From Amphritea japonica ATCC BAA-1530 (GTDB taxonomy: Bacteria > Pseudomonadota > Gammaproteobacteria > Pseudomonadales > Balneatricaceae): a stretch of DNA of 64,000 nucleotides. Both the position numbers and the translations under genes were made by a program. Of the stretch, positions 821-19,143 are shown one piece after another. Positions within the stretch are counted from its first letter, which is position 1. Every line of letters starts with the position of its first letter. The notes below the pieces were generated by a model. It ran no database searches and was not told where the DNA came from. It saw only the letters and a program-made list of their open reading frames with translations. The stretch is from NCBI RefSeq assembly GCF_016592435.1, contig NZ_AP014545.1, positions 2,302,693 to 2,366,692 on the forward strand. Reading direction: 5' to 3'.

Positions 821-1038
821 TGACTCTATTCCGTTATATGGTCACCACTGCAGCGGATATTGTGACACTTTTCACGACCGGTCAAAACAATTTTCGCAGA
901 GGATAAAACTGTGATCCGGACCAAACTCAACAAAACTCAAAATGGTTATTTTTAAATTCCACAAGCGCTTGCAATAAAATCTGAAAAGGGCATTCTGTAA
1001 GTGTGACATCAAGCATAGTTTGCATTAAGGGCTACATC

Positions 1039-1386: not shown

Positions 1387-1401
1387 TCTTCCATTTTGCA
1401 C

Positions 1402-1434
1402 AAAAAAGGCTGAACTTTGTTCAGCCTTTTTTAT
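1402..1434. terminator. Bidirectional rho-independent terminator
   Basis: AAAAAAGGCTGAAC-TTT-GTTCAGCCTTTTTT. It has an 8-bp GC-containing stem flanked by A and T tracts, so it works both for hpf (+) and for the SH3b gene (-), which converge on it. Confidence 0.9.
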
Positions 1435-1465
1435 TTCTATTATCCGGTTAACAAACAGCAAATCT

Positions 1466-2236
1466 TTACCGTGCCTCTAGTAACCGCTCAACAATCCAGC
1501 CGGTCACTTGTTTACCCTCTAAATCGGTACGAATTTTCTTCCACTCCTTCTGGCTTGCTATCACTTCAACTTCTTGCGGGTGACTCAGCTGCCCCACCAC
1601 CCGGTAGTTAGATCCAGGCCCAGAGCGAAAGTTAACCTGGGTGCCCTTCACCCGAGAGAATGAAATAGTAGCATCAGCGTTTGGTGTTGCTGCCCTAGAA
1701 GAAGAAACCGTCGTATTTGCCTTTGATGCCGCTTTAGCCGGTTGTAAAAACCTGGCCGCTGTCCAGGCCTGAGCAGTTTTTCCTGACTCATTACGATACC
1801 TGACTTTGATCCATTCACCGTCGCGGTGCAGCTGTTTAACCATTTGGTTACGCTTCAAACCACCTACAACAGGGTGCTCGCTACCAGGCCCTCGTCGTAA
1901 CCGAAGTGCTGCAACAGTGACAGTATAGTATTCCCCACTACCCTCAGAAACAGACCGAGTGGCTCCCTGCTGTTGCGCGGTAAGGTTTTTGCTCAACACC
2001 CAACCCTTGAGCGGCTGTTTTTTAGCCGTCAGAAAGAAAACCTTTGACCATTCGCCCTGTTTATCTATTTCCAGCAAAACGTTCCCTTTTGCCAGCTGGC
2101 TCATGACTTCCTTACCACCCGGATCTGTAAAAACCTCAGCAGCTCGGTTAACCATGAAATATTCAAATGCCTGACTAAGGCTAGAGAAAAGGCATAAAAA
2201 AACCAGCAGTGCAGGTTTGACAATGGCTGTCTTCAC
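1466..2236 (-). CDS. Exported protein with three bacterial SH3 (SH3b) domains
   Basis: About 256 residues. A signal peptide (VKTAIVKPALLVFLCLFSSLSQA) is followed by three SH3b-like units near residues 27-80, 102-160 and 190-255. The second and third carry the typical LR-RxGPGSxxPVVG and NFRSGPGSNYRVVG motifs. SH3b units bind peptidoglycan or other envelope ligands, so a periplasmic role is likely but the ligand is unknown. A longer frame starts at 2263, but AGGA lies 9 bases before the GTG at 2236 and that start gives a compact signal peptide, so GTG was chosen. The gene is monocistronic and converges with hpf. Confidence 0.8.
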   Translation of the reverse strand: MKTAIVKPALLVFLCLFSSLSQAFEYFMVNRAAEVFTDPGGKEVMSQLAKGNVLLEIDKQGEWSKVFFLTAKKQPLKGWVLSKNLTAQQQGATRSVSEGSGEYYTVTVAALRLRRGPGSEHPVVGGLKRNQMVKQLHRDGEWIKVRYRNESGKTAQAWTAARFLQPAKAASKANTTVSSSRAATPNADATISFSRVKGTQVNFRSGPGSNYRVVGQLSHPQEVEVIASQKEWKKIRTDLEGKQVTGWIVERLLEAR

Positions 2237-2495
2237 GAAAGAAAATCCTGTGTAAAGTATCAATTGAGTAGCCCATCATAGCAATTATGCAGACGCTGGC
2301 AAGCCGAACTACTAAGCCGTTTACAGCTTACCAGACTCATACTCATTTGTTTAATTACTACACAATCTGAGGAAAGTTATAGAACTATCTTGTTAATATA
2401 TCGCTATAATCGTTTTACCTCTGTAGATATATATAGAAAGAGCTTATCTGGAACTTACTTTCTTAAATGCTTAAGCTCACTAACTGGAGTGGTAT

Positions 2496-3701
2496 ATGGC
2501 GCAGGATATACTGATGGCACGCCAGCCAATTTATGACCAGCACCTCAATGTTGTTGCCTATGAATTGTTATACCGCTCAAAAGATAGCCTGCAAAATAAT
2601 CTGATTGAGGATGGCAACAGCGCTACCAGTCAGGTTCTACTCAACAATTACACCAGTATCTATCAATCCGGAAAACTCACCAAACTCCCTGCGTTCATTA
2701 ACCTGACCAAAGAGATGGTAAAATCTGACCAAATACCAGAACTTTCCCGTCAACACATAGTGCTGGAAATTCTCGAAGGCATGGAAGTAGATGATGAGCT
2801 GATCTCGGGCGTTCAGCGTTTTGTCGATGAAGGTTACAAAGTCGCGCTGGACGATTTCATCTACAGCCCGGAATACGACCCCATTATCCGCATGGCGCAT
2901 ATCGTCAAATTAGATATACTCGAAATGACCGACGAAGAGTTAGTCAGACATGTCAAAATATTAAAACCGTTTGGTGTCACATTATTAGCCGAAAAGATTG
3001 AAACTCAGGCTGAGTTTGAACGCTGTCATGCCCTGGGATTTAAATTATTCCAGGGCTACTTTCTTTGTCGCCCTCAACTGGTTCAGGGTAAACAGCTTAA
3101 TTCTAATGAAATAGTCATGGTCGAGCTTATGTCGGCCCTGGCAGACCCTAACGTAACGCCTGCCAGTATTGAGCGCATCGTTAAAAAAGATCCTCAACTG
3201 ACATTTAGAATTCTTCGAATAGTAAATTCATCTTTCTACAATCTGATCAGAAAAATCGATAGCCTTGAAGAAGCGATCGTATTACTGGGGATTTCAGAAG
3301 TAAAACGCTGGTGCGCCCTGATCGCTTTTTCAGATCAAAACGGAAAACCGGAAGAGCTAACCCGTCATACCCTTGTACGAGCCCGCATGTGCGAAATTCT
3401 GGCTGAGGAAAGCGATGGAATGTCCGGCTCAACCGCTTTTATGATGGGTGTTGTATCCGGTCTCGATGCCCTGCTGGATATCCCTATTGAAGATATTCTC
3501 GAGCAAGTATTCCTCACTGAAGAGATAGAGCTTGCCATTCTCATGGGCGAAGGAAATTATGGCCAGTTGCTAACTAACGTGGACAATTTGATTCAAGGGC
3601 GCTGGAACCACTTATCTGCTCTGCAGACTGAGCAGGCACTCAGTGAGTCTTATATCAATAGCCTGCAATGGGTCACTGAAATTTCTGAAAAAATGATCTG
3701 A
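2496..3701 (+). CDS. EAL-HDOD (YuxH-family) signalling protein
   Basis: 401 residues. The N-terminal half is an EAL-like domain in which the signature is ELLYR (residues 23-27) instead of EALLR. Later motifs are also altered (LDDF, KLDI, LAEKIET, QGYFLCRP). The C-terminal half (about 200-400) is an HDOD domain (RIVKKDPQLTFRILRIVNS, LGISEVKRWC). In this family EAL is usually catalytically dead and acts as a c-di-GMP sensor or protein scaffold. GGAG precedes the ATG by about 8 bases. The gene has no operon partner and no U-tract terminator is seen downstream. Confidence 0.88.
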   Translation: MAQDILMARQPIYDQHLNVVAYELLYRSKDSLQNNLIEDGNSATSQVLLNNYTSIYQSGKLTKLPAFINLTKEMVKSDQIPELSRQHIVLEILEGMEVDDELISGVQRFVDEGYKVALDDFIYSPEYDPIIRMAHIVKLDILEMTDEELVRHVKILKPFGVTLLAEKIETQAEFERCHALGFKLFQGYFLCRPQLVQGKQLNSNEIVMVELMSALADPNVTPASIERIVKKDPQLTFRILRIVNSSFYNLIRKIDSLEEAIVLLGISEVKRWCALIAFSDQNGKPEELTRHTLVRARMCEILAEESDGMSGSTAFMMGVVSGLDALLDIPIEDILEQVFLTEEIELAILMGEGNYGQLLTNVDNLIQGRWNHLSALQTEQALSESYINSLQWVTEISEKMI

Positions 3702-3784
3702 CATTGAGATCAACTCTGGCTTAATTCCCAAATATAACCCGACTATCCCATCGATATTTACACCGCCTTCGATCACAAACAGGC

Positions 3785-3809
3785 AGCTGATAAATTTTTT
3801 TTATCAGCT
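3785..3809 (+). other. Perfect inverted repeat downstream of the EAL-HDOD gene
   Basis: AGCTGATAAA and TTTATCAGCT are separated by five T residues: 10-bp arms and a 5-base loop. No T tract follows, so it is not a canonical terminator. It lies 84 bases past the EAL-HDOD stop and 96 bases before the 63-residue gene. Confidence 0.5.
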
Positions 3810-3904
3810 ATGTAAGTGATTATTCATTAGACAGGTTTCAACAGTAGCGGGACAATGACCACATATTCACAGATCTAATATTTTAAAGAGAGTATGACCC
3901 ACTC

Positions 3905-4096
3905 ATGACTACACTGATTTCACTGAACAAATTTCAACAACTACGTCACGTAGATGAAATAGTTGAGCAGGCAGAAAACAGCTGGTGGGTATACCGTCGC
4001 AGCATCGGCTTCAACGGAGGTTTGAGCTCTACAGCTCGCGTAGTATTTTTCGGGCGTAGCAAAAAACAGGTAACAGAGTGGATGGCTGAACAGTAA
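3905..4096 (+). CDS. Small protein of unknown function (63 aa)
   Basis: 63 residues with a compact centre SWWVYRRSIGFNGG and RVVFFGRSKKQVTEWM. There is no signal peptide or membrane segment. Aromatic and basic residues dominate the centre. Codon use resembles the neighbours. I do not recognise the family. AAAGAGAG sits before a nearer ATG at 3894 that opens a four-codon frame (ATG ACC CAC TCA TGA) whose stop overlaps this ATG, so translation may be coupled. It precedes the D-glutamate/oxoproline operon by 289 bases and could be its first member, or independent. Confidence 0.6.
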   Translation: MTTLISLNKFQQLRHVDEIVEQAENSWWVYRRSIGFNGGLSSTARVVFFGRSKKQVTEWMAEQ

Positions 4097-4109
4097 GCGC
4101 CAACAAATT

Positions 4110-4262
4110 TTAACTGACTTCTAAACATCCCTGGATGTTCAGTTAACCGGCTGGGCAGTGATCCTGTCCAGCCTCCCCCCACTACTTCTGTAGCTCCCTC
4201 GTTGCTTAAGCTCAACACCGCGCTCTATATACTCCAACAGAGTCTATGCTTTTACTCTGTTG
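4110..4262 (+). other. Hairpin-rich leader before the D-glutamate/5-oxoproline operon
   Basis: Three inverted repeats lie in 153 bases: 4110-4146 (TTAACTG/CAGTTAA enclosing AACATCC/GGATGTT), 4149-4173 (GGCTGGGCAG/CTGTCCAGCC, 10 bp with one wobble) and 4235-4262 (CAACAGAGT/ACTCTGTTG). None is followed by a clear U tract. The stretch 4097-4385 holds no gene. It could be a cis-regulatory RNA leader, RNA-processing sites or the end of the upstream small gene. Confidence 0.45.
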
Positions 4263-4385
4263 TATCGATCGTTTAGCCTGAGAGGCACCCATTATCAGGC
4301 CACTGCTTTTTCGTACCATTTCATACGAGTAAGCAAAGTCACATAATAGCGTCGCATTGCGACCCGCAGAATAAAGGTAAAACTG

Positions 4386-5174
4386 ATGAACAAAGAGATG
4401 ACTCCTTTTGAAATCCGCCAGCATATTCGTAGCGGCGAATTCACAGGCAATACGTCTGGGTATGGACAGGGGTTTGTACAGGGAAACCTTGCGATCATGC
4501 CAAAAGAGTGGGCTAACGACTTTCTCCAGTTCTGCCAAAAGAACCCAAAGCCTTGTCCTATCGTTGGCATGTCCAGTCAGCCTGGCGAATTTATGTTGCC
4601 AGATTTGGGGCAAGAGATAGATATCCGTAGTGACGTACCAAAATACCGTATCTACGAACACGGAATACTGACCCGGGAAGTTGCTGATCTGACACCTTTC
4701 TGGCGCGACGACCTGGTGACCTTTGTCTTAGGCTGTTCATTCTCTTTTGAAGAAGCTCTCATCGCCGACGGACTCGAAGTACGAAATATCACAGAAGGCG
4801 TAAACGTACCGATGTACCGCACCAACATTGAATGTAAAAGCGCAGGACGTTTCAGCGGTACTACCGTTGTCAGTATGCGTCCAATGAAAGCGGCTGATGC
4901 AATTCGTGCTGTACAGATCTGTACACGTTTTCCGTCAGTACACGGTGCGCCTCTTCACTTAGGCGATCCGTCTCAGATCGGAATCAACGATATCAATACG
5001 CCGGATTTTGGCGATGCCGTCACCATTAAAGAAGGAGAACTTCCTGTCTTCTGGGCCTGCGGAGTAACTCCACAGGTTGCAATTGAACAAGCGAAACCTG
5101 AATTCTGTATTACCCACAGCCCGGGCCATATGCTGATAACTGATCTGCCAAACAGCCGACTGGCTGTGCTGTAA
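4386..5174 (+). CDS. DUF1445 protein (D-glutamate cyclase N-terminal family, YcsI-like)
   Basis: 262 residues spanning the whole DUF1445/UPF0317 family, annotated as putative hydro-lyase in bacteria. Family stretches seen include [35 protein letters not shown] and [10 protein letters not shown]. In mammals this domain forms the N-terminal half of D-glutamate cyclase (DGLUCY), which turns D-glutamate into 5-oxo-D-proline. Bacillus ycsI also lies beside oxoprolinase genes. AAAGG precedes the ATG. It is first in an operon with pxpABC (13-base gap to pxpA) and with the DUF4392 gene at 7627, the other half of DGLUCY. A role in D-glutamate or oxoproline metabolism is inferred from this context. Confidence 0.85.
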
Positions 5175-5187
5175 AGGAGCACTCTCT

Positions 5188-5922
5188 ATGTCATTACGTC
5201 TTAATTGTGATCTGGGTGAAAGCTTTGGTTCCTGGAAAATGGGACTGGATGAAGCCGTCATGCCGCATATCGATCAGGCCAATATCGCCTGTGGCTTTCA
5301 CGCGGGTGATCCGCTGGTCTTGCAGAAGACACTCGCCCTGGCGAAGGAAAACAATGTCACCATCGGTGCCCACCCTGGCTATCCGGATCTAGTCGGATTT
5401 GGCCGTCGAAGCATCAAAGCCTCTACTGCAGAGTTAAAAGCGATGGTGCAGTACCAGATCGCAGCTATCGATGGAATGGCATTAACTCAGGGCATGACCC
5501 TGAGCTACGTTAAGCCTCACGGCGCTATGTACAACGATATGATGGCTGACGCTGCCATACGCAAAACCATCATGCAGGCTGTCGCCGAGTATCATCGTCC
5601 ACTGGTTCTTATGCTTCAGAGCACGCCTCAATTTGAGCAACACCTTGAGGAAGCTAAAGCGGCCGGCATAGAACTTTGGTTTGAGATCTTTGCTGATCGT
5701 TGTTATGACGACGATGGCAAGTTATTAGCCCGCACCAAGCCAGGAGCCGTTCACACCAAAGAGAAGATGCTAACTCAGGTTAAACAGCTTAAAGAACAAG
5801 GTACCGTCACTACCGTTAGCGGGCGTACCTTAAACCTGCGCGCTGATACCCTTTGTGTTCATGGTGACAATATGGACGGCGTTAATGCTATTGAGGAAAT
5901 TAGAGAGTTGATCCGCCAATGA
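5188..5922 (+). CDS. pxpA: 5-oxoprolinase subunit A (LamB/YcsF family)
   Basis: 244 residues, the length of E. coli PxpA. Family signatures are NCDLGESFG at the N-terminus, NIACGFHAGDP and GAHPGYPDLVGFGRR. PxpA works with PxpB and PxpC as the ATP-dependent cytoplasmic 5-oxoprolinase that opens 5-oxoproline to glutamate. AAAGGAG lies before the ATG. The last codons overlap the pxpB start (ATGA), implying translational coupling. Context places it in disposal of 5-oxoproline made by the flanking cyclase-family proteins or arising spontaneously from glutamine or glutamate. Confidence 0.95.
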   Translation: MSLRLNCDLGESFGSWKMGLDEAVMPHIDQANIACGFHAGDPLVLQKTLALAKENNVTIGAHPGYPDLVGFGRRSIKASTAELKAMVQYQIAAIDGMALTQGMTLSYVKPHGAMYNDMMADAAIRKTIMQAVAEYHRPLVLMLQSTPQFEQHLEEAKAAGIELWFEIFADRCYDDDGKLLARTKPGAVHTKEKMLTQVKQLKEQGTVTTVSGRTLNLRADTLCVHGDNMDGVNAIEEIRELIRQ

Positions 5923-6632
5923 TTAGCATGGCAGACAACAGCATCCGAATCGAAGTGGCAGGCGAAAATGCTCTGATCATCTACTTTGGTGAAAAGACTG
6001 ACCCAAGCGTGTCGGCACGGGTCCAACAAGCGGTTACCATTCTTGAGACTGAGTTAAATGGCAAGCTGATCGATATGGTGCCTTCCTATGCGTCATTGCT
6101 GGTGATTTATGATCAGTTGGCAACTGACCACCTGGAAGTACGCAGCACCATACGCAAGGTACTTAACCAATTGAGCGATGCCGTTAACACAGAGGGTAAT
6201 CTGGTTATCCTGCCTGCATATTACAGCAGGGAATCGGGCCCCGATCTAGATGCGCTGGCTCAACGGGCCGGACTCAGTGCTGATGAAGTAATTAAATTGC
6301 ACAGCGAAATGGAATATCGGGTCTACGCCATCGGCTTTGCACCCGGGTTCGCTTACCTTGGCGAAGTCGATGAACGAATTGCCGCTCCACGCCTTTCTAC
6401 ACCGAGAATGAAGGTTCCCCGGGGCGCTATTGCTATTGCTGACCGCCAAACAGCTGTCTATCCGGCTGTCTCTCCTGGTGGCTGGAATCTGATCGGACTC
6501 TGCCCTACACGTATGTTTGACCCGGAAGCTGAGCCCACCATGCCAGTCCAGGTAGGTGACCGCATCAAATTCAATCCAATCAGCCGTGATGAGTTTTTCG
6601 CTCTGGGTGGTGAACTGGGAGAGATAAAATGA
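5919..6632 (+). CDS. pxpB: 5-oxoprolinase subunit B (KipI/allophanate hydrolase subunit 1 family)
   Basis: 237 residues with the KipI-type core: FAPGFAYLGEVDERIAAPR, VPRGAIAIADRQTAVYP and SPGGWNLIG. It overlaps pxpA by four bases at the start and pxpC by four at the end (ATGA in both). A second in-frame ATG at 5928 is an alternative start. In Bacillus the homologue inhibits kinase KinA, but beside PxpA and PxpC the oxoprolinase role is the better reading. Confidence 0.94.
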   Translation: MISMADNSIRIEVAGENALIIYFGEKTDPSVSARVQQAVTILETELNGKLIDMVPSYASLLVIYDQLATDHLEVRSTIRKVLNQLSDAVNTEGNLVILPAYYSRESGPDLDALAQRAGLSADEVIKLHSEMEYRVYAIGFAPGFAYLGEVDERIAAPRLSTPRMKVPRGAIAIADRQTAVYPAVSPGGWNLIGLCPTRMFDPEAEPTMPVQVGDRIKFNPISRDEFFALGGELGEIK

Positions 6633-7567
6633 GTGGTTTTAGAGTTATCCAGCCAGGTCTGCTTACTCTGATTCAGGATGCCGGACGTTTCGGCCACCAT
6701 CGTATCGGTCTGACCACCGGCGGACCTGTGGACAGCCTGGCGTTCAAATGGGCTAACCGTCTGGTTGATAATCCATTGAACAGCACCACGCTGGAGATTA
6801 GTTTTGGCGGTCTGGTGATGCAAGCTGAGACTGACGCACAAATCGTGCTGGCCGGCGCCGAGATGCCTCTGAAGATCAACGGAGTTGAACAAGATCGCTG
6901 GCACGCTCACAAGATCAAAGCAGGCGATAAAATCGAAGTCAGCTTCTCGGCACAAGGCGCACGTGCTTACCTGGCCGTCAGCGGTGGCTTTCAGGTAGAG
7001 CACAGTTTTTCCAGCAGCGCGACAGTTACCCGCGAAGGTATCGGCGGTTTTACCGGTGACAAACTTCAACAGGGTGATTTTCTCTATTGTAAGCCATCTG
7101 GAGAGCATGGTGGTTTTCGCCTGCCAGAAGAGCATCGTCCTGACTACTTCGACGATATATCCCTAAGGGTGATTACCGGTTATCAGCAACAGGCTTTCAG
7201 TGATTACCAAAAACGCCTGTTTTTCAGTAGCGAATACAAAGTGACTGATCGAGCCGACCGCATGGGTTACCGATTGGAAGGCCCCGAAGTTAAACCGTCG
7301 ATTGATGGCATTTTATCGGAAGGTATCTGCCACGGAGCGATACAAATTCCAGCGGATGGTCAACCAATCGTATTGCTTAATGACCGACAGACAATCGGCG
7401 GCTATCCGAAGATAGGTTCTATGATCGCAATGGATACGGCTCGAATGGCGCAGTTGCTCCCCGGCTCTCGAATATCATTCGAAGAGATCAGTATCGACGA
7501 TGCTCATAATCTTCACTGTCTGGCCCATGTTCGGTTCAACAATACCGAGCCGGAAGCCATCGATTAA
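6629..7567 (+). CDS. pxpC: 5-oxoprolinase subunit C (KipA/allophanate hydrolase subunit 2 family)
   Basis: 312 residues, close to the 310 of E. coli PxpC. It begins FRVIQPGLLTLIQDAGRFG and contains IGLTTGGPVD, YLAVSGGF and the conserved VLLNDRQTIGGYPKIG near the C-terminus. It forms the oxoprolinase complex with PxpA and PxpB. The start overlaps the pxpB stop (ATGA). The next gene follows after 59 bases with its own AAAGAGAG site. Confidence 0.95.
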   Translation: MSGFRVIQPGLLTLIQDAGRFGHHRIGLTTGGPVDSLAFKWANRLVDNPLNSTTLEISFGGLVMQAETDAQIVLAGAEMPLKINGVEQDRWHAHKIKAGDKIEVSFSAQGARAYLAVSGGFQVEHSFSSSATVTREGIGGFTGDKLQQGDFLYCKPSGEHGGFRLPEEHRPDYFDDISLRVITGYQQQAFSDYQKRLFFSSEYKVTDRADRMGYRLEGPEVKPSIDGILSEGICHGAIQIPADGQPIVLLNDRQTIGGYPKIGSMIAMDTARMAQLLPGSRISFEEISIDDAHNLHCLAHVRFNNTEPEAID

Positions 7568-7626
7568 GCAAACGACCTGCGTACACCAAGATTTGCACGA
7601 ACAGAATTTTAAAGAGAGAACGCTCG

Positions 7627-8481
7627 ATGTCTAAGAATCAGATCAACGAATCAACCCTGAGCCTTCAGGTAGAAGACCTACTGGTTTCCCGCAACCTGCG
7701 CGGCATGAAAACCGTTCAGCCTGCTCTTTCCACTGGCTACTACCTGCGGGCAGCACGCACGCTTTATAAGTGTAAAGGCCATGTACTGATTGGTACCGGC
7801 TTTCCTGTAGTCGATACCTTTGAAACCGATGGCCCCGTTGGCGCTATTGCGCTCTACGAAGCATTGGAAAAACTCGGTGCCACACCGGTTATCGTTTGTG
7901 GACCGCCAGTATCTCAGGCACTGATGGACAACTACCGGGTACATGAGATCCGCGTTGGCGAACATCAGGAACGTACCCTTGAAGCTTTCAAGGCACTGTA
8001 CAACTATAACCCGGATGCAGTGTTATCTATCGAACGCCCGGGACAGGCAGCAGATGGCGGCTATTACAATATGCGCGGCGAGAGCATCAGTGAACGCACC
8101 GCTTGTTTCGATACCTTTGTTAACAACGCTAAGTGCCCAACGATTGGCATCGGCGATGGTGGTAACGAGATAGGTATGGGTAACATTACAGAGGCGCTTA
8201 AAGATCTGGATATCAACGCGGCGGCAACCTGTGTTGATGAACTACTGATCGCCGATGTATCTAACTGGGGAGCATATGGCTTGATCACATTCTTCAGCCT
8301 CTGGAGCGGCCGCGACCTGCTGGGTGAGTTCGCACCATTAGCGATCCTTGAATACCTGTCCAAGCTTGGTAGTGTTGATGGCGTTACCCGCATCAACGAA
8401 CTCACCGAAGATGGTCTGCCGGTTGATGAAGGAATCAGTGTTATAGAAGAACTGCGTGGACTGATTGGTTATAACGACTAA
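7627..8481 (+). CDS. DUF4392 protein (D-glutamate cyclase C-terminal family)
   Basis: 284 residues across the DUF4392 family: VLIGTGFPVVDTFETDGP, AIALYEALEKLGA, SIERPGQAADGGYYNMRG and the glycine-rich IGIGDGGNEIGMGNI. Mammalian DGLUCY is a fusion of DUF1445 with this domain. Here the two are separate genes at opposite ends of one operon around pxpABC. The protein is soluble with no signal peptide. The gene ends the operon and a terminator follows 17 bases later. The joint action of the two halves on D-glutamate is inferred from the eukaryotic fusion, not shown by the sequence. Confidence 0.85.
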   Translation: MSKNQINESTLSLQVEDLLVSRNLRGMKTVQPALSTGYYLRAARTLYKCKGHVLIGTGFPVVDTFETDGPVGAIALYEALEKLGATPVIVCGPPVSQALMDNYRVHEIRVGEHQERTLEAFKALYNYNPDAVLSIERPGQAADGGYYNMRGESISERTACFDTFVNNAKCPTIGIGDGGNEIGMGNITEALKDLDINAAATCVDELLIADVSNWGAYGLITFFSLWSGRDLLGEFAPLAILEYLSKLGSVDGVTRINELTEDGLPVDEGISVIEELRGLIGYND

Positions 8482-8498
8482 CCAATGATACACATAAG

Positions 8499-8522
8499 AA
8501 ACCGCCGTATGGCGGTTTTTTT
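8499..8522 (+). terminator. Rho-independent terminator of the oxoproline operon
   Basis: ACCGCC-GTAT-GGCGGT followed by a run of T. It ends the operon starting at 4386. Confidence 0.92.
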
Positions 8523-8579
8523 ATGTCTGAAAACTGTAGCGAAGAACCAGTCTCCCCCTGAACGATGCCCCTGAAAAAT

Positions 8580-9626
8580 CTATCCCCCCGTCATCACTTT
8601 CAGAGGTTCCTGATAAAGAGATATATCACCAATATTTTGTGCCACCCATTGCGCATCATAATAGCTATCCAGATAGCGCTCACCGCTATCACAGATAAGC
8701 GTGACCAGAGAGCCCTTTTCGCCCTGCTGATGCATCTCCGCTGCAAGCGTCAGCATCCCCCAAAGGTTGGTTCCGGTTGATGCCCCTGCTCTGCGACCTG
8801 TTTGCTGTTCCAGCCAGCGCATCGCAGCAACTGAAGCACCGTCAGGCACTTTGATCATCCGGTCGATCACTGTAGGTTGAAACGACTCTTCCGCCCGGGG
8901 GCGCCCTATTCCTTCAATTCGCCCACCTTTGTTTATTTCAATGCAACGATTGCCGGTGCGCCAAACGTCATAAAACACTGAATTTTCAGGATCCACAGCG
9001 ACTAATTCACTATTCAGTCCCTTATAGCGAATATAACGCCCTAAGGTGGCCGTTGTCCCACCCGTTCCCGCACTCATAACGATAGCAGCAGGCACGGGAT
9101 GAGGCTCTTGACTCATCTGCCGAAAGATACTCTCAGCAATATTACTATTGCCCCGCCAGTCAGTCGCCCGTTCAGCATAACGAAACTGATCCATAAAATG
9201 GCCATTACATTCCTGCGCTAGCATTACCGCAGCATCATGCATTTGAGTCGGGCAATCAACATAGTGACAACGGCCGCCATAAAATTCGACCTGTTTGATC
9301 TTAGCCACAGCAGTTTTACGTGGCATAACCGCTACAAATGGCACACCAATCATACGAGCAAAGTAAGCTTCTGAAACAGCAGTACTGCCTGACGAAGCCT
9401 CAATCACTGTTGTCTCATTGCTAATCTGCCCATTACATAGCGCATAAAGAAAAAGCGAGCGAGCTAAGCGGTGTTTGAGACTGCCCGTAGGGTGGCTACT
9501 CTCATCCTTCAAATACAGGTCGATTCCAGTAAGGCCCGGTACATCTAACTTAATCAGATGCGTATCTGCTGATCGCTGTGCATCCGCCTGAATCAAAGCT
9601 ACCGCCTCTTGTACCCAGCTCGTCAT
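8580..9626 (-). CDS. PLP-dependent cysteine synthase/cystathionine beta-synthase family enzyme
   Basis: 348 residues, fold-type II PLP enzyme. The PLP lysine lies in HPTGSLKHR (about residue 50). The substrate loop is EASSGSTAVSEAYFA rather than the SSGNTG of CysK, and the phosphate-binding loop is SAGTGGTTATLGRY. This divergent subgroup is often called cysteine synthase-like, and cysteine desulfhydrase-type activity is an equal possibility. It is divergent from an Lrp regulator 140 bases away, the arrangement of Lrp-controlled amino-acid degradation genes. D-amino acids are another possible substrate given the neighbours, but that is speculation. Confidence 0.85.
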   Translation of the reverse strand: MTSWVQEAVALIQADAQRSADTHLIKLDVPGLTGIDLYLKDESSHPTGSLKHRLARSLFLYALCNGQISNETTVIEASSGSTAVSEAYFARMIGVPFVAVMPRKTAVAKIKQVEFYGGRCHYVDCPTQMHDAAVMLAQECNGHFMDQFRYAERATDWRGNSNIAESIFRQMSQEPHPVPAAIVMSAGTGGTTATLGRYIRYKGLNSELVAVDPENSVFYDVWRTGNRCIEINKGGRIEGIGRPRAEESFQPTVIDRMIKVPDGASVAAMRWLEQQTGRRAGASTGTNLWGMLTLAAEMHQQGEKGSLVTLICDSGERYLDSYYDAQWVAQNIGDISLYQEPLKVMTGG

Positions 9627-9766
9627 ATCGTCAATTCCTTAAATCAATTACTCAATACACAAAGTATAAAACGGTATTGATAGAATTTTTTTGTCTTTCT
9701 CTGGATAAAATCATCGATATATAGAATAATTTTCTTCCTTAACAATAAAATAAGAAAATTATTTTT

Positions 9767-10228
9767 ATGGATAGCGTAGATAAGAAAATACTCACACTAT
9801 TACAGCAAGATGCTACCCTGTCGGTTAACGACATAGCCGAGCGGGTTAGCCTCTCAACAACCCCTTGTTGGAAGCGCATTAAAAAGCTTGAGGATACTGG
9901 TGTCATCAAAGCCCGGGTAGCGCTGTTAGACAACGCAAAAGTAGGTGCAGGCGTTTCTGTTTTTGTTCACCTGAAAACTCATAATCATGAAGACCAGTGG
10001 CTGGCACGCTTTGCTGAAAGTATAAAAGGCTTTGATGAGGTGATGGAGTGCTATCGAATGGCCGGTGAGTGGGACTACCTGCTGAGGGTTGCCACTAAAG
10101 ATATCGAGTCCTTTGATCGCTTCTATAAAAAGCTCATTACTGAAATTGATGGTTTAACCGATGTTACCTCAAGCTTTGCCATGGAGGAGATTAAATTTTC
10201 AACCTGCCTGCCACTTAACAACATCTAA
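9767..10228 (+). CDS. Lrp/AsnC family transcriptional regulator
   Basis: 153 residues. An N-terminal HTH (DKKILTLLQQDATLSVNDIAERV with SLSTTPCWKRIKKLE) is followed by a RAM ligand domain (VFVHLKTHNHEDQWLARF, EVMECYRMAGEWDYLLRV). The TPCWKRIKKLE recognition helix is like that of cysteine-responsive Lrp members such as DecR. It is divergent from the PLP enzyme at 8580 and so probably controls it. The 140-base spacer is AT-rich with several TATAGA/TATTG-like stretches. Confidence 0.9.
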   Translation: MDSVDKKILTLLQQDATLSVNDIAERVSLSTTPCWKRIKKLEDTGVIKARVALLDNAKVGAGVSVFVHLKTHNHEDQWLARFAESIKGFDEVMECYRMAGEWDYLLRVATKDIESFDRFYKKLITEIDGLTDVTSSFAMEEIKFSTCLPLNNI

Positions 10229-10290
10229 AAGTTTGCACCGCCCGCAGGCTTCTATATAGTTGATGTGATGATGACACGAGCACTATCCCC

Positions 10291-11175
10291 ATGCGCCTGA
10301 GAAACCTGAACACTTTTGTCAAAGTAGCTAATCTGGGTAGTTTCCACGCAGCAGCCCAACAGCTGCATGCAACTCAACCCGCTATTTCAGCACGGATTAA
10401 TACGCTTGAAGAGGAACTGGGGACTCAACTGTTTATCCGCGATAAAAGCGGAACCCGCCTTTCCTCCCGCGGCGTACAACTGCTGCCTTATGCTGAGAAA
10501 TTGCTGGCGATTAGCCTGGAAATGAAACAGCAAATAAGCGATAAAAGCCCACAAAAAGGTACGCTACGCATCGGCATTACCGACACTTTAGCCAACCTGT
10601 ATCTTTCTCCACTACTGAAACACTGGCAACAGCTGCATCCTTTAATGTCATTTGAGCTGATCAGTGATGTCACACCGACACTGACACGCCAATTACAAGA
10701 GAATCAGCTGGACCTGGCTCTGATGGTCGCAGGTAATTATGATCAGCCCGAACTGGTAATAGAGCCTTTATGCAGCTATCCCCAACACTGGGTCGCTACA
10801 CCAGAGCGACTTGCAGATAACCCCGTCACCAGCTTAGAAGCACTCAGCCACTCGCCTATTCTGAGCTTTCCCCGTGACACCCGCCCATGGGACTATCTGC
10901 AGCAGCTTTTTCGTCCGCTTGATGAAAGGCCCATATTCCACACTTGCAGCTCTGTCGCCAACTTACTAACTCTGACCCTTCAAGGGGCTGGAATGGCACT
11001 TTTACCCGCCCCCATTATTCAGGAACACCTGTCCAGAGGGATGTTAGTCGAGTTCAGCCCTGGCCCTAAACCTCCGGAACTTTCATTTTGTGCGTGCTGG
11101 CGACTGGATGATGACAGGATTCTCCCTCAACTGTTAGCTCAGAGCGGGCGGGAAATTATCGTCGCTACTGCTTAA
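10291..11175 (+). CDS. LysR family transcriptional regulator
   Basis: 294 residues: HTH at about 1-60 (LRNLNTFVKVANLGSFHAAAQQLHATQPAISARI) and a periplasmic-binding-like ligand domain. The start is ATG with no strong ribosome site. It lies 62 bases after the Lrp gene and 386 bases before the D-amino acid transaminase gene, so it may control either. The ligand is unknown. Confidence 0.88.
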   Translation: MRLRNLNTFVKVANLGSFHAAAQQLHATQPAISARINTLEEELGTQLFIRDKSGTRLSSRGVQLLPYAEKLLAISLEMKQQISDKSPQKGTLRIGITDTLANLYLSPLLKHWQQLHPLMSFELISDVTPTLTRQLQENQLDLALMVAGNYDQPELVIEPLCSYPQHWVATPERLADNPVTSLEALSHSPILSFPRDTRPWDYLQQLFRPLDERPIFHTCSSVANLLTLTLQGAGMALLPAPIIQEHLSRGMLVEFSPGPKPPELSFCACWRLDDDRILPQLLAQSGREIIVATA

Positions 11176-11561
11176 GCATTTAAACTCCCAACTGAGTTAA
11201 CTCACACTTATTACAGGTTTAATTACCAAAAACACCCATTTGACACTTTTTATTCCTGTTTCAGCCAACAAAACAGACTATATTTCTTAAGTTTTTGCGG
11301 CTATTGCAACTATTCCTCTTTTCTAAGAAACTAATCTCAATTGGATAAACCAGACCGCAGTAAACCTATAGCACTCAGCCACAAGCTCCGCTCAGTTCAC
11401 TGCAGACCGCCTGAGTCGATTGCTTTCCTCCAAGCGAGTAAAACCAGCATCTCAGAGTCAAAGAATTCCGGACCACGCGCTAAGACTTCACCACCTGGCT
11501 AAATTAAAGCCTGGGTTTACACTTAAGCAGGGTCTCTCAACACGTTTAAAGGAAGGTTAAT
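11176..11561 (+). other. 386-base gene-free region upstream of the D-amino acid transaminase
   Basis: No open frame with coding character, tRNA or long inverted repeat was seen. A TTGACA at 11240-11245 lacks a -10 box at the right distance. AAAGGAAGG before the ATG at 11562 is the ribosome site. This probably contains the promoter and leader of that gene. Confidence 0.4.
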
Positions 11562-12425
11562 ATGAGCATTGCATACCTGAATGGCGAATACCTGCCACTA
11601 GAAGAAGCCCGCATCTCCCCAATGGACCGCGGCTTTCTGTTTGGCGATGGTATCTACGAAGTTATTCCGTATTACAACGGTAAATCTGTAGGCCTGATGC
11701 CTCATATCACCCGTATGATCAACGGTCTCGCTGAAATCGAGATCAAGAACAGCCACACCGCTGATGAGTGGAAAACACTACTGGACAACCTTATTGCAAA
11801 AAACAGTGATCAAGGCGATAACCTGGGTGTTTATGTTCACATCTCTCGTGGTACTGACGTTAAGCGCTACCATGCGTATCCAGAAGGTGTTGAACCTACC
11901 ATTTTCTGTTTCACTTTTGGTATCAAAGACCCTGAGCCGACAGATCGTACAAAAGTACACCAGTACAGCATGATCTCTACTGAAGACCTGCGCTGGCAGC
12001 GTTGCCACATTAAATCTACAGCGCTGTTGGGTAACGTAATCCACTTCCAGGAAGGCTACTCTTCCGGTCACGATGAAGCTCTGCTCTACAACGCTAAAGG
12101 CGAACTGACAGAAGGCAGTTCCTGTAACGCATTCATTGTGAAAGATGGCGTGATCATCACCCCGATTCAGGATAACCAGATTCTGCCGGGCATCACCCGT
12201 CGCATTATTATCGACAGCCTGAAAGCAGATGGCTCTCTGACAGTGGAAGAGCGTACTATCACCATGGACGAAGTGCGCAACGCTGACGAACTATGGATTA
12301 CCAGCTCCTCTAAAGAGATTGCTCCGGTGACTCAACTGGATGGAAAGCCGGTCGGTAATGGCGAAGTTGGCGAGATCTGGGAAAAAGCATTCAAGATCTA
12401 TACTGCGTCTAAGTACGACTTCTAA
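11562..12425 (+). CDS. dat: D-amino acid aminotransferase (fold-type IV PLP enzyme)
   Basis: 287 residues. The N-terminal motif AYLNGEYLPLEEARISPMDRGFLFGDGIYEVIPYYNG and the PLP lysine in CHIKSTALLGNV fit the D-alanine transaminase branch of the BCAT/DAAT family. It swaps amino groups between D-amino acids and 2-oxo acids and typically yields D-glutamate from 2-oxoglutarate. That links it to the D-glutamate cyclase-family operon 3 kb upstream. It is monocistronic, with a strong AAGGAAGG ribosome site and a terminator downstream. A 4-amino-4-deoxychorismate lyase or BCAT assignment is less likely from the motif set. Confidence 0.88.
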   Translation: MSIAYLNGEYLPLEEARISPMDRGFLFGDGIYEVIPYYNGKSVGLMPHITRMINGLAEIEIKNSHTADEWKTLLDNLIAKNSDQGDNLGVYVHISRGTDVKRYHAYPEGVEPTIFCFTFGIKDPEPTDRTKVHQYSMISTEDLRWQRCHIKSTALLGNVIHFQEGYSSGHDEALLYNAKGELTEGSSCNAFIVKDGVIITPIQDNQILPGITRRIIIDSLKADGSLTVEERTITMDEVRNADELWITSSSKEIAPVTQLDGKPVGNGEVGEIWEKAFKIYTASKYDF

Positions 12426-12481
12426 GTACTGCTATTAAGGCCCGGCTACAAAGCCAGACCCTTTAGTCGCTGACTGACTCA

Positions 12482-12510
12482 CAAAAAAACGCACCTCGGT
12501 GCGTTTTTTT
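12482..12510. terminator. Bidirectional rho-independent terminator
   Basis: ACGCACC-TC-GGTGCGT flanked by A7 and T8. It serves dat (+) and the nicotinamide riboside kinase gene (-). Confidence 0.92.
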
Positions 12511-12543
12511 TGGTTAAAGACCAGCAACAAGCTCTACATATAC

Positions 12544-13071
12544 TTAGAGCCTTCCTGTATGCAGAGACATCAGGCTCTCTAAAGCCGCTTCAGCATTTGC
12601 TAACCGCTGAAAACCGTCACCTGCCACTATCACGTAGGGTCGGTTAAGCCGCTTAACCTCACTCAAATGGCGCTGATAGAGTATCTCGCGATCGTTCGGA
12701 CTCTCCCGCAGCAAGTCAGCTTCCCAGGGAAGATCCGGCTTGCATAGCAAATAAACGTGGGATGACTCTTGCTCAACAGCCTCAAAAATCTGACCAGGAC
12801 AATGCCCGAAAACCTCTTCAGCCCAGATTTTATAATTGATCATATCGGTATCAAAAATACCGATTGGGACTTCGGGATCAACCTCTGCTCGTTGATACTT
12901 CAGATGTAATCTGCTCAATCTAATTAGCAGTTCCAGATCATACTCCGGACCCTTTTCCTCCAGATAAAAACGCGCATACTCCAGTGCATAAGGCAGGTGA
13001 AATTGCCTGCCCAGATGCTCCGCAATTGTGCTTTTCCCGGACGATTCCGCACCCGTAATAATAATCCTCAT
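12544..13071 (-). CDS. Nicotinamide riboside kinase (NadR C-terminal domain-type ATPase)
   Basis: 175 residues, equal to the kinase domain of NadR without its HTH and adenylyltransferase domains. Walker A is GAESSGKST (residues 7-15), followed by ALEYARFYLEEKGPEY and the Walker B-like IGIFDTDMINYKIW. It would phosphorylate imported nicotinamide riboside to NMN. Its ATG shares one base with the pnuC stop (TGATG), so the two are coupled as a salvage unit. Confidence 0.9.
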   Translation of the reverse strand: MRIIITGAESSGKSTIAEHLGRQFHLPYALEYARFYLEEKGPEYDLELLIRLSRLHLKYQRAEVDPEVPIGIFDTDMINYKIWAEEVFGHCPGQIFEAVEQESSHVYLLCKPDLPWEADLLRESPNDREILYQRHLSEVKRLNRPYVIVAGDGFQRLANAEAALESLMSLHTGRL

Positions 13072-13730
13072 CAGGAATGAGTACTCACCAACGGCTGGGC
13101 TTTAAGAGACCTGTGCCATTGAATCCAGCCATAGATACCCAGCCCCAGGAAAATGGCATATTGAAACGAGTATATTGGCGCGCCTTTAACCCAGTATATG
13201 TAGATACCCAGTATATTGACGATACACCAGCCGACCCAGTTTTCCATCCGCTTACGCGCCTGAAGAAACTGCGCAAAAAAGCTCAATACGGTAGTGACAG
13301 AATCGAGCCACAACAAAGAGGGCTCAGGAATCCAGCTAACCTTCGCTGCCAATGCAGTAATACCAAAACCCCATCCGGCGATACAGAGAACGGTGACAAA
13401 AAACAGGGCTAGCTGCTTATCTCTGGAGAGCCATACCGGAACAAAAGGAGCACCCTCACGAGCCGCATTCCCGTTAACCCACGCTTTCCAGCAATACAAC
13501 TGAATCGGAATATAAGTAAGGTAAAGAATACCATCTGAAACTAACTGCCACTCGGTGATCGCTAGCCATGCGGAGATTGACGCCCAGAGGATACCAAGCG
13601 GCCAGCCCATAATATTCTGCCTGGCTATCAGAACCACCCCCAGAATAGCACTCAGGGTGGCTACAATTTCCAGAGGGGTACTACCCAACAGCTGCAACCA
13701 CTCGATAGTCGCCATGATGTTATTGTCCAT
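13071..13730 (-). CDS. pnuC: Nicotinamide riboside transporter PnuC
   Basis: 219 residues with about seven membrane segments. PnuC-type pattern: IMGWPLGILWASISAWL, LYLTYIPIQLYCWKAWVNG and W-VGWCIVNILGIYIYWVKGAPIYSFQYAIFL. It carries nicotinamide riboside across the inner membrane, trapped by the kinase encoded next. A second start (MATIEWLQ) lies 15 bases in. No NAD-linked riboswitch could be recognised in the 90 bases upstream. Confidence 0.92.
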   Translation of the reverse strand: MDNNIMATIEWLQLLGSTPLEIVATLSAILGVVLIARQNIMGWPLGILWASISAWLAITEWQLVSDGILYLTYIPIQLYCWKAWVNGNAAREGAPFVPVWLSRDKQLALFFVTVLCIAGWGFGITALAAKVSWIPEPSLLWLDSVTTVLSFFAQFLQARKRMENWVGWCIVNILGIYIYWVKGAPIYSFQYAIFLGLGIYGWIQWHRSLKAQPLVSTHS

Positions 13731-13822
13731 AAGGGTGTTTGCTTTTTTTACTTCAGAAAATAGATGTAAAAACTAAATCCGACTGAATCAAGCAGGCCCT
13801 TTTATTGATTCATCGGACCTAC

Positions 13823-14878
13823 TCATCCCAGCGCTGGATAATCCGTATAACCAACGGGTCCCTGCCCATAGAATAGTTCCGGACGTGGCGCGTTAAGTTC
13901 AGCATCCAGTGCTAGTCGCTTTGGCAGATCTGGATTAGCAATAAACGGGATTCCAAAAGCAATCGCGTCCGCCTTGTTTTCTGCCAGCCAATGATTTGCC
14001 TGCACCTTGTCAAACTGTTCATTAGCAATCACAGGGCCGTTAAATAACTGTTTTAACAACGGCGTCAAACTGTCTTCAGCCGCATGTTCACGGGTTGAAA
14101 TAAAAGCGATATCCCGCTTTCCTAATTCTGTTGCAACATAGCTGAAGGTTTCAGTTCGATTCGAATCCCCCATATCATGAGCATCCATCCGGGGCGCCAG
14201 ATGAACTCCCACTCGCCCTTTACCCCACACACCTATGCACGCATCCGTGACTTCTAACAGTAAGCGGGCACGGTTTGCCAGAGAACCGCCGTATTCGTCA
14301 TCTCGTCTATTTGTTTTGTCTTGTAGAAATTGATCAAGAAGATAACCGTTGGCGCCATGCACATGCACACCATCAAAGCCGGCCACTTTGGCGTTTTCAG
14401 CACCCTGTCGATAAAGTTCTACCTGTTCCTTCACCTCATCTATTGTCAGTGCTCGAGGCTCTACATATGCTTTCTTAGGCCTGACCAAGCTCACATAGCC
14501 TGCCGGACGGACAGCACTGGGAGCCACAGGTAAATTATCGTTCAGGTAAAGAGGATCCGAGATCCGACCCACATGCCATAACTGCAGAAAAATAAGACCG
14601 CCAGCCCGGTGTACTGCGTCAGTTACCCTTTTCCAGCCCTCGATCTGAGCATCCGACCAGATTCCAGGAGTATCAGGATATCCGACTCCCATTGGAGCAA
14701 CCGATGTCGCTTCTGTCAGAATTAAGCCAGCACTGCTGCGTTGAGTATAGTAATCAGCCATTAACTGATTGGGGACGCGATATTTATCAGCACGGCAACG
14801 GGTTAACGGTGCCATTACTATACGGTTTTTCAAGGTTAGGTCACCCAGAGTGACGGGATCAAAGAGTGTTGACATCAT
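13823..14878 (-). CDS. nemA: Old yellow enzyme family alkene reductase (NemA-like)
   Basis: 351 residues, FMN barrel. It shows MAPLTRCRA near the N-terminus, LQLWHVGRIS, the substrate-binding HGANGYLLDQFL (His/Asn pair and Tyr) and the C-terminal FGIPFIANPDLPKRL. The family reduces activated alkenes, maleimides and nitro compounds with NADPH. It lies 8 bases after an ArsR-type gene, like nemR-nemA units that respond to electrophiles, although NemR is TetR-type in E. coli. Induction by electrophilic stress is inferred. Confidence 0.92.
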   Translation of the reverse strand: MMSTLFDPVTLGDLTLKNRIVMAPLTRCRADKYRVPNQLMADYYTQRSSAGLILTEATSVAPMGVGYPDTPGIWSDAQIEGWKRVTDAVHRAGGLIFLQLWHVGRISDPLYLNDNLPVAPSAVRPAGYVSLVRPKKAYVEPRALTIDEVKEQVELYRQGAENAKVAGFDGVHVHGANGYLLDQFLQDKTNRRDDEYGGSLANRARLLLEVTDACIGVWGKGRVGVHLAPRMDAHDMGDSNRTETFSYVATELGKRDIAFISTREHAAEDSLTPLLKQLFNGPVIANEQFDKVQANHWLAENKADAIAFGIPFIANPDLPKRLALDAELNAPRPELFYGQGPVGYTDYPALG

Positions 14879-14886
14879 AACTCCTG

Positions 14887-15192
14887 TTAAAGCTGTTCAT
14901 TTAAACGCGTCAAAAATTGCTGAATCGCAGCGTCATTACGTGAGAAAAAATTCCACTGGCCTACTTTCTTACTACTGATAAAGCCTGCTCGCTGCAGAGT
15001 CGCCAGATGAGCAGACACAGTGGACTGCGACAGCCCCGTTTTCTGATCGATCAGGCCAGCACAAACCCCAAAGCTCAGGGGATGCTCCTGATCAGAAAAA
15101 AACTGCGATGGCTGTTTTAGCCAATTCAAAATATCCCTGCGCACCGGATGAGATAGCGCTTTAATCATCTCATCAAGTTCTGTAACGCCCAT
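14887..15192 (-). CDS. ArsR family transcriptional repressor
   Basis: 101 residues. Winged helix: MIKALSHPVRRDILNWLK, then GLSQSTVSAHLATLQRAGFISSKKVGQWNFFSRN. A cysteine (GVCAGLIDQ) precedes the HTH and could be a thiol switch. It heads the two-gene operon with the alkene reductase. A 22-bp perfect palindrome lies 22 bases upstream of the ATG. Confidence 0.9.
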   Translation of the reverse strand: MGVTELDEMIKALSHPVRRDILNWLKQPSQFFSDQEHPLSFGVCAGLIDQKTGLSQSTVSAHLATLQRAGFISSKKVGQWNFFSRNDAAIQQFLTRLNEQL

Positions 15193-15213
15193 AGCACACC
15201 TTTAATCTTAAAA

Positions 15214-15235
15214 TCGTTATATCGCGATATAACGA
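15214..15235. promoter_or_regulatory. 22-bp perfect palindrome, likely ArsR operator
   Basis: Each half is TCGTTATATCG and its exact complement follows. It lies directly upstream of the ArsR-alkene reductase operon and fits autoregulation. A related half site (ACGATATA) occurs at about 15255. Confidence 0.75.
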
Positions 15236-15418
15236 AATATACTTCGCCTTAACACGATATACAAGTAACTAAATGCAATGGTTCATTTAATCGCGATTGA
15301 ACAGGCACGGAAATACTTCAGCTAAACGGCTTAAATTCTATGCCTTTAACTATTCACAGAGAGAACAAGAAAAGAATTTGGTAGCATTAACAAAATCATA
15401 AAATTTAAGTTCTCACTA

Positions 15419-16138
15419 ATGAAAAAAACACTCATGTCCTGGAGCAGCGGTAAAGACAGCGCCTGGGCGCTCTACCAATTGCAACGCGATCCAACGATCG
15501 AACTAATGGGGTTAGTTTGTACTATAAATGAAGAGTTCGATCGGGTTGCAATGCACGGAGTACGGGTAGAACTACTCAAAGCCCAGGCTAGCAGCATTGG
15601 ATTACCGCTAGAGATTCTTGCGTTACCAAACCCCTGTAGCCATAAAGACTATGAACAGATAATGGGTGACTTTGTAGCAAGAATTAAAGAAGATGGAATC
15701 GAATGCATGGCATTCGGCGACCTGTACTTAGAGGACATTCGTGCTTACAGAGAAGAAGCGATGGCAGGAAGCGGTATTACGCCAATTTTCCCTCTCTGGA
15801 ACATCCCAACCAAACAACTATCCAGAGAGATGCTGGATAACGGCTTAAGAACCGTCATCACTTGTATCGATCCAAAACAAGTTCCCGTTGAATTGGCTGG
15901 CAGGGAGTATGATCATGCCTTTCTTGACGAGCTAGCCGACTCTGTAGACCCCTGTGGAGAGAATGGTGAATTCCATAGCTTCGTCTTTGATGGGCCCATG
16001 TTTCGAAACAAAATAGAGATAACCGTCGGCGAAATCGTTGAGCGTGATAACTTCATCTTCGCAGATCTGCTACCGGATAACACTGTAGCATCACAACCCA
16101 TTGAGACCATATCCCGGACATACTCAGATGAAACCTGA
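15419..16138 (+). CDS. Dph6-like PP-loop ATPase (diphthine-ammonia ligase family)
   Basis: 239 residues. PP-loop SSGKDS (9-14) and the family C-terminal CGENGEFHSFVFDGPMF. In archaea and eukaryotes Dph6 amidates diphthine on EF2. Bacteria lack diphthamide, so the bacterial substrate is unknown. AFGDLYLEDIRAYRE and TCIDPKQVP are further family stretches. The 3' end overlaps the next gene by 11 bases. The ribosome site is weak. Confidence 0.85.
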   Translation: MKKTLMSWSSGKDSAWALYQLQRDPTIELMGLVCTINEEFDRVAMHGVRVELLKAQASSIGLPLEILALPNPCSHKDYEQIMGDFVARIKEDGIECMAFGDLYLEDIRAYREEAMAGSGITPIFPLWNIPTKQLSREMLDNGLRTVITCIDPKQVPVELAGREYDHAFLDELADSVDPCGENGEFHSFVFDGPMFRNKIEITVGEIVERDNFIFADLLPDNTVASQPIETISRTYSDET

Positions 16139-16730: not shown

Positions 16731-16785
16731 ACGACTGCTAAACCAGGGTCGACGCTTGAAGACCTCGTTCATACTTTGATTGGCA

Positions 16786-17016: not shown

Positions 17017-17024
17017 CTTATAAT

Positions 17025-18989: not shown

Positions 18990-19143
18990 TTATAAGCTTT
19001 AAGGGGGTAGCGCATATCTGCTCAGCTTGGTACTGACTCAAGAACAACAGCAGTTCAATGTTTTGCAGTATAACCACTTCCACGAACACTGCTACCGTTT
19101 CACTGAATCCGTTGATTCGACACAAAACAGAGCTTAGAAAAAA

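Follow-up and report, generated by a model that had tools for sequence, protein, structure and literature searches.

What could a bacterium do with the two halves of a vertebrate D-glutamate cyclase when they are encoded by separate genes placed around the genes for 5-oxoprolinase? The question is raised by a stretch of 64,000 nucleotides (here called the window) from Amphritea japonica ATCC BAA-1530 (contig NZ_AP014545.1, positions 2,302,693 to 2,366,692; source genome 3.83 Mb, a single contig), in which genes for a DUF1445 protein, the 5-oxoprolinase subunits PxpA, PxpB and PxpC and a DUF4392 protein lie in a row and are followed by a gene for a protein resembling D-amino acid transaminase (DAT). 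DUF1445 and DUF4392 are also the two Pfam halves of vertebrate DGLUCY (C14orf159, 9030617O03Rik), which is one polypeptide, whereas the window has two bacterial genes with pxpABC between them. Fused mouse DGLUCY converts D-glutamate to 5-oxo-D-proline (PMC5339696), and the vertebrate DUF1445-DUF4392 fusion was noted, and linked functions suggested, by Sohn et al. (PMC5132392). We found that the window arrangement is an instance of a conserved cassette, DUF1445-pxpA-pxpB-pxpC-DUF4392-(lysR)-dat(-alr), whose carriers are mostly marine bacteria. Judging from sequence and gene content, we read the cassette with moderate confidence as a putative split D-glutamate cyclase acting with PxpABC, with DAT and alanine racemase (Alr) as a possible second outlet.

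Split DGLUCY homologues are already in print. The human GLUCM row in Rendina et al. 2025 reads 0 and 6, which we take as full-length and split gut homologues, and the split homologues have their two halves as nearby separate genes, as in the window (PMC12547972). A text search of that paper did not find 5-oxoproline and the passages found have no operon content, and a word search of PMC13274462 returned no mention of D-glutamate, 5-oxo-D-proline or DUF. No description of the cassette was found among the entries listed from the open-licence literature, and none of separate roles for the two DGLUCY domains in that literature.

The operon and the DAT-like gene

Five genes are packed on the plus strand of the window. 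The first encodes the DUF1445 protein (4386-5174), which matched PF07286 ('D-Glu_cyclase'; expectation value, E, 1.7e-68) and NF003969 ('putative hydro-lyase'). It is followed by PxpA (5188-5922; PF03746; NF003816 score 347.2 against a cut-off of 213), PxpB (5919-6632; PF02682; TIGR00370 score 164.4 against 145.55) and a PxpC-like subunit (6629-7567; PF02626), so labelled because it passed only the broader TIGR00724 (251.4 against 230.2) and missed the cut-off of the equivalog model NF045499 (212.5 against 500). The fifth gene encodes the DUF4392 protein (7627-8481; PF14336, 'GLUCM-like_C', E 3.8e-69), which is homologous to archaeal TON_0340 as well as to the DUF4392 half of DGLUCY. From DUF1445 to DUF4392, successive genes are spaced by 13 nucleotides, a 4-nucleotide overlap, a second 4-nucleotide overlap and 59 nucleotides, and the same strand has, 3' of the operon, a terminator-like hairpin and T run (about 8499-8523). 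The call of a terminator relies on where it lies, its GC stem and its T tail rather than on the scan count (10 sites against a shuffle mean of 7.5). The DUF1445 and DUF4392 genes are about 2.5 kilobases (kb) apart, have pxpABC between them and encode separate polypeptides, with no fusion of the DGLUCY type. The only annotations that bacterial copies of the two proteins carry are 'putative hydro-lyase' and 'glutamate cyclase domain-containing protein'.

The class IV aminotransferase gene (11562-12425, plus strand) encodes a protein that matched PF01063 (E 4.8e-45) and whose best matches were D-amino-acid transaminase models and, among solved structures, D-amino acid aminotransferases. It is called DAT-like because the curated DAT models stayed below their cut-offs (TIGR01121, 227.9 against 277.45; NF005209, 248.8 against 320). 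The protein has R-x-H at residues 102-104 and lysine 151 in an I-K-S context, which may correspond to the carboxylate motif and the catalytic residue of D-amino acid transaminase. An earlier, sequence-only reading of this DNA had described the five genes as one operon ending in a terminator, with a D-amino acid transaminase 3 kb further on; the five genes were confirmed in place, in tight same-strand order, as was the transaminase gene.

PxpABC of Escherichia coli, Bacillus subtilis and Corynebacterium glutamicum is likewise encoded by three adjacent subunit genes. The window differs in that its PxpA and PxpC belong to clades apart from E. coli, its PxpC lies below the equivalog cut-off, and DUF1445, DUF4392 and DAT are partners. 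The B. subtilis ycsFGI-kip operon presumably has DUF1445 (YcsI) beside the 5-oxoprolinase genes and, unlike the window cassette, has no DUF4392. PF07286 was detected in one of 14 control genomes, that of B. subtilis, and DUF4392 in none of the 14.

Conservation of the cassette

The conservation of this arrangement was assessed in 80 loci, the best 80 of 537 confirmed DUF4392 relatives obtained by scanning the genomes of named species with a DUF4392 profile. Being the closest relatives, they describe the subfamily of the window rather than DUF4392 as a whole; 79 of the 80 locus titles name gammaproteobacterial groups and one (L048) names only Proteobacteria. The closest relative among them, with 94% identity, was from an Amphritea metagenome-assembled genome. 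When the window proteins were used as queries and loci with enough flank were counted, DUF1445 was detected in 67 of 71 loci, PxpA and PxpB each in 71 of 72, PxpC in 72 of 73, and DAT in 59 of 68. The usual gene order was DUF1445-pxpA-pxpB-pxpC-DUF4392-DAT, and no DUF1445, Pxp or DUF4392 match above 100 bits lay on the opposite strand in the 80 loci. An alanine racemase was found in 35 of the 80 loci by phmmer; BLAST clustering placed 32 of these in the cluster, 31 directly after DAT and one upstream of DUF1445, and the four that were scanned all scored above the TIGR00492 cut-off.

Departures from the usual order were few. DUF1445 lies 2-6.5 kb further upstream in L083 and L085. The cluster of L087 is without pxpA and that of L103 without pxpB and pxpC; pxpA and pxpB, respectively, were found elsewhere in these genomes. 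Four loci had no linked DUF1445 (L079, L095, L096, and L107) and all four genomes encode it elsewhere. DUF1445 was present in all eight genomes of the whole-genome check and, linked or elsewhere, it accompanies cassette-type DUF4392 in 71 of 71 cases checked, compared with 64 of 398 background genomes, the other nine loci having too little flank. In L108, from a metagenome-assembled genome, the DUF4392 and DAT frames are each split in two pieces. PxpA was detected in 23 of 23 cassette genomes tested and in a single copy in 22 of them; therefore, the cassette PxpABC is probably the only PxpABC in most of these genomes. The window PxpA is the sole PF03746 match in the source genome.

PxpC and DUF4392 form a single open frame in four of the 80 loci (L088, L089, L092, and L101). 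The fused frames have 594-621 codons, each was matched by both window proteins, and Pfam detected both domains in the one that was scanned (L101). On a DUF4392 tree of 79 of 81 rows (L094 and L108 were dropped, being too short after trimming), the fused rows require two changes, either one gain and one loss or two gains. No other single observation points as strongly to a common reaction path as this joining of DUF4392 with a subunit of 5-oxoprolinase.

Quick trees were made from 80 PxpA rows and 72 PxpC rows, 37 of each from cassettes. The cassette PxpC proteins form one clade with a support of 93, which is below the starred level, and the cassette PxpA proteins form one clade with a support of 100, into which the PxpA of one further locus, L146, also falls. 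PxpA and PxpC of E. coli are far from the cassette clades.

The link of DUF1445, DUF4392, PxpABC and the DAT-like gene to D-glutamate and 5-oxoproline, as claimed in the sequence-only reading, has strong genomic support as a functional link because gene order is conserved, PxpC and DUF4392 are naturally fused, and DUF1445 occurs elsewhere in the four genomes in which it is unlinked. From these genes we infer the substrates, the requirement for both halves, the direction of flow (DAT might make D-glutamate from D-amino acids or turn D-glutamate into 2-oxoglutarate) and the step that bridges the two chiral forms.

Metal site and structural relatives

Alignment of the window DUF4392 protein to TON_0340 gave E66, D68, E136, D177, E181, and D262 as equivalents of the six metal ligands named for TON_0340 (PMC5132392), so that all six are present, and they were invariant in 34 of 34 aligned DUF4392 rows. 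The window DUF4392 model (predicted local distance difference test, pLDDT, 94) had TON_0340 as its only confident structural match; the 18 matches at E of 0.001 or less consisted of 15 to TON_0340 and three to unrelated folds at low template modelling score (TM-score). Thermococcus TON_0340 (PDB 5gl2-5gl4, 5gkx, 4fc5, and 4dwz) has the same fold and all six acidic ligands, but it is a stand-alone protein, probably a phosphatase whose substrate was not assigned (PMC5132392), whereas the window protein sits in a cassette.

The DUF1445 protein has solved relatives, 2pif and 3db9, and its AlphaFold model (pLDDT 89) matched both. Outside the DUF1445 family, only two chains of MJ0159 (3nek) passed an E of 0.001 among the 50 structure matches listed, with E of 3.8e-5 and 3.1e-4 and TM-scores of 0.33-0.40, and these matches were not informative.

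Occurrence in other genomes

In a sample of 398 evenly drawn Pseudomonadota genomes, DUF4392 was found in 10, DUF1445 in 64 and PxpA in 149. DUF1445 accompanied DUF4392 in eight of these 10 genomes (Fisher p about 1e-5), and so did PxpA, also in eight (Fisher p about 0.007). DUF1445 and DUF4392 were at most about 7 kb apart in six of the 10 (G000, G126, G234, G320, G328, and G348), and no pxp genes were found in the fetched stretch around DUF4392 in G320, G328, and G348. In the remaining four (G043, G057, G108, and G139), the DUF4392 proteins are distant ones and their gene settings differ; G043 has a pxp cluster on the DUF4392 contig, about 7 kb away, and no DUF1445 nearby. A second, class-level survey detected DUF4392 in three of 369 genomes, the source genome included, and both new loci, 3.8 kb each, contain PxpB-PxpC-DUF4392, one of them also DAT. 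The expectation from the sequence-only reading that DUF4392 is linked to pxp genes in other genomes holds for the nearest subfamily and fails for the distant DUF4392 proteins, which are not members of pxp operons.

Several other settings of DUF4392 were seen. In G348, a PALP gene, DUF1445, DUF4392 and an amino acid kinase gene lie in a row without pxp genes (L016, 7826-11924), and PxpB sits on a different contig. G328 has an open frame of 3586 residues with two DUF4392 domains and, directly upstream on the same strand, a DUF1445 gene (L015, 4683-15440 and 15576-16898). A stretch with glutamate-racemase-like motifs between these DUF4392 domains was noticed by eye; Pfam found no family there and it was not used as evidence. 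On Agrobacterium and Sinorhizobium plasmids (L162 and L163), a distant DUF4392 lies between a threonine/serine dehydratase gene and a RidA gene, with bhc genes nearby in one and a DUF1445 'putative hydro-lyase' gene nearby in the other; no pxp genes are annotated in the 15-kb stretches of these two loci.

In G126, G234, and G320, which belong to one family, genes for NamZ exo-muramidase, GH3, RpiR/SIS, BadF-SIS and a symporter adjoin DUF1445 and DUF4392, and GH3 adjoins them in Pseudoalteromonas. We take the RpiR/SIS and BadF-SIS neighbors to be MurR- and MurQ-like. This suggests peptidoglycan as a source of D-glutamate, only in the lineage of G126, G234, and G320.

A putative route for D-glutamate

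The cassette would shuttle carbon and nitrogen between three pools: D-glutamate, 5-oxoproline and glutamate. Most likely, the DUF1445 and DUF4392 proteins together would act like fused DGLUCY and convert D-glutamate to 5-oxo-D-proline with the assistance of a metal, DUF4392 contributing its six-acid metal site to the cyclization. PxpABC would then reopen 5-oxoproline with ATP; in the assumed division of work, PxpBC phosphorylates 5-oxoproline, PxpA opens the ring and removes the phosphate from gamma-glutamyl phosphate, and for the L form the equilibrium strongly favors the ring (PMC13274462). DAT, together with alanine racemase where present, would tie D-glutamate to 2-oxoglutarate, D-alanine and L-alanine, and peptidoglycan turnover is a plausible source of the D-glutamate. 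Passage from 5-oxo-D-proline to L-glutamate would need a bridging step, either an extra enzyme or a relaxed specificity of PxpABC.

A fuller version, which we put forward tentatively, is a racemase-free, ATP-driven interconversion of D- and L-glutamate via 5-oxoproline by DUF1445, DUF4392 and PxpABC, including a 5-oxoprolinase active on the D form or else an enzyme that inverts 5-oxoproline. The natural fusion of PxpC with DUF4392 suggests that, in this scheme, DUF4392 would be physically coupled to PxpBC.

Several points weigh against a split cyclase feeding PxpABC. The bridging step is needed because the PxpABC work cited here concerns the L form, and PxpABC acting on the D form would remake D-glutamate at the cost of ATP. 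An altered specificity was sought as alignment columns conserved at 90% in cassette rows and 75% in others, using the window and 36 cassette loci (taken from every second locus and then filtered by length) against 42 other PxpA and 34 other PxpC rows, with L146 left out. No PxpA column separated the groups and PxpC had only two group-specific columns; with no separating PxpA column, an altered specificity leaves no visible sequence sign. In L146 (in G276), a DAT-like gene comes after pxpABC, and both DUF1445 and DUF4392 are missing; the PxpA of this locus is on a long branch inside the cassette clade, its PxpC falls outside, and the locus may be a reduced cassette. Two of the 10 sampled DUF4392 genomes (G057 and G108) are without DUF1445 and PxpA, and DAT is not near the cassette in nine of 68 loci. 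Of peptidoglycan genes sought by phmmer, GH3 was found in one of the 80 loci (L103), and no others were found in those loci and none at all in the window. TON_0340 has weak Mn-dependent phosphatase activity (PMC5132392), D-glutamate cyclase and DAT have been regarded in one paper as more likely anabolic (PMC6131576), and the open-licence papers searched gave no report that either bacterial protein is active.

Alternative explanations

The alternative that survives best, although unlikely, is that the flow is reversed: DUF4392, together with DUF1445, would belong as an additional component to a 5-oxoprolinase able to use 5-oxo-D-proline. PxpBC would phosphorylate the lactam, DUF4392 would act on the phosphorylated or opened intermediate, and D-glutamate would pass to 2-oxoglutarate via DAT. 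The fusion of DUF4392 to PxpC in four of 80 loci fits this scheme, as do the Mn-dependent phosphatase activity of TON_0340 (PMC5132392) and the assumed kinase step of PxpBC and dephosphorylation of gamma-glutamyl phosphate by PxpA (PMC13274462). The single cassette clades of PxpC and of PxpA (the latter including L146) and the retention of pxpABC-DAT alone in L146 are also consistent with it. However, vertebrate DGLUCY cyclizes D-glutamate, whose level rises when the enzyme is lost (PMC5339696), the equilibrium reported for the L form is strongly on the ring side (PMC13274462), and the retention of PxpA in all 23 cassette genomes tested argues that DUF4392 has not replaced PxpA.

We consider it doubtful that the two halves divide the labor, with DUF4392 as the cyclase and DUF1445 as a 5-oxoproline racemase or an enzyme of a related step, so that D-glutamate would be converted to 5-oxo-D-proline, 5-oxo-L-proline and finally L-glutamate with ATP spent. 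Such a division would close the stereochemical gap, and it would suit both the constant company of DUF1445 with cassette-type DUF4392 (71 of 71) and the presence of DUF1445 with pxpABC, without DUF4392, in 17 regions (including L111) that were chosen for that linkage. Fused mouse DGLUCY, however, yields 5-oxo-D-proline, which people excrete (PMC5339696), and no confident racemase match to the DUF1445 model was among the 50 structure matches listed.

A role in supplying D-glutamate for peptidoglycan, in which DAT and alanine racemase would take the place of glutamate racemase (MurI) and the cyclase and PxpABC would only trim the excess, is quite improbable. For TIGR00067, no MurI match above the cut-off was found in 29 of the 38 cassette genomes (above in 8 of 23 and 1 of 15), but it was above the cut-off in only 61 of 185 sampled Gammaproteobacteria (Fisher p 0.34), and the source genome has MurI and a second DAT-like gene. 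Replacement of MurI as a trait of the cassette was rejected since the base rate of the class is similar. In five MurI-less Halieaceae (G407, G408, G409, G412, and G414), the cassette DAT was the sole TIGR01121 match above 200 bits, and a D-glutamate supply role is possible in these five. Finally, an ordinary pxp operon with two unrelated passengers is very improbable: pxpA is common (149 of 398 genomes) and pxpABC does occur near DUF1445 without DUF4392, but the six-gene order is conserved across several families and a gene fusion accompanies it.

Genes between the operon and the DAT-like gene

Three genes separate the terminator-like hairpin from the DAT-like gene: a PALP-family enzyme on the minus strand (8580-9626), whose closest model, Cds1 (L-cysteine desulfhydrase), was below its cut-off; an Lrp/AsnC-type regulator (9767-10228, plus strand), which is divergent from the PALP gene and probably controls it; and a LysR-type regulator (10291-11175, plus strand) between the Lrp-type regulator and the DAT-like gene. 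The divergent pair of a Cds1-like PALP gene and an Lrp-type gene (8580-10228) resembles what we take to be a cysteine-detoxification pair.

Distances were compared in 69 loci with a plus-strand DAT above 250 bits. The DAT start was at most 600 nucleotides from the DUF4392 frame in 50 loci, 0.87-1.34 kb away in 15, all with a LysR gene between, and 3.1-4.3 kb away in four (L029-L032), which have PALP, Lrp and LysR genes between, the same as the window. The PALP gene was matched only in these four among the 80 loci. The 3-kb gap in the window looks as if DNA had been inserted locally into an older cluster, and the PALP gene is probably such an insertion, outside the cassette. The LysR gene is probably an original neighbor of DAT because it lies between DUF4392 and DAT in the 15 other loci.

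Upstream of DUF1445, a small open frame of 63 codons (3905-4096) is preceded by a purine-rich stretch. An Rfam search of window positions 1-20000 gave no match, and no tRNA genes were found in the window.

Implications for D-glutamate metabolism

With the two halves present as separate bacterial genes, each can be purified, deleted and assayed by itself, the PxpC fusion is a direct hint of coupling, and the stereospecificity of PxpABC becomes a clear, testable question. Should the interconversion route be true, its parts would explain the role of each half of vertebrate DGLUCY. The gene content of the cassette points to a putative pathway for handling D-glutamate, and the finding is relevant to the way in which these bacteria deal with this compound, which may come from peptidoglycan.

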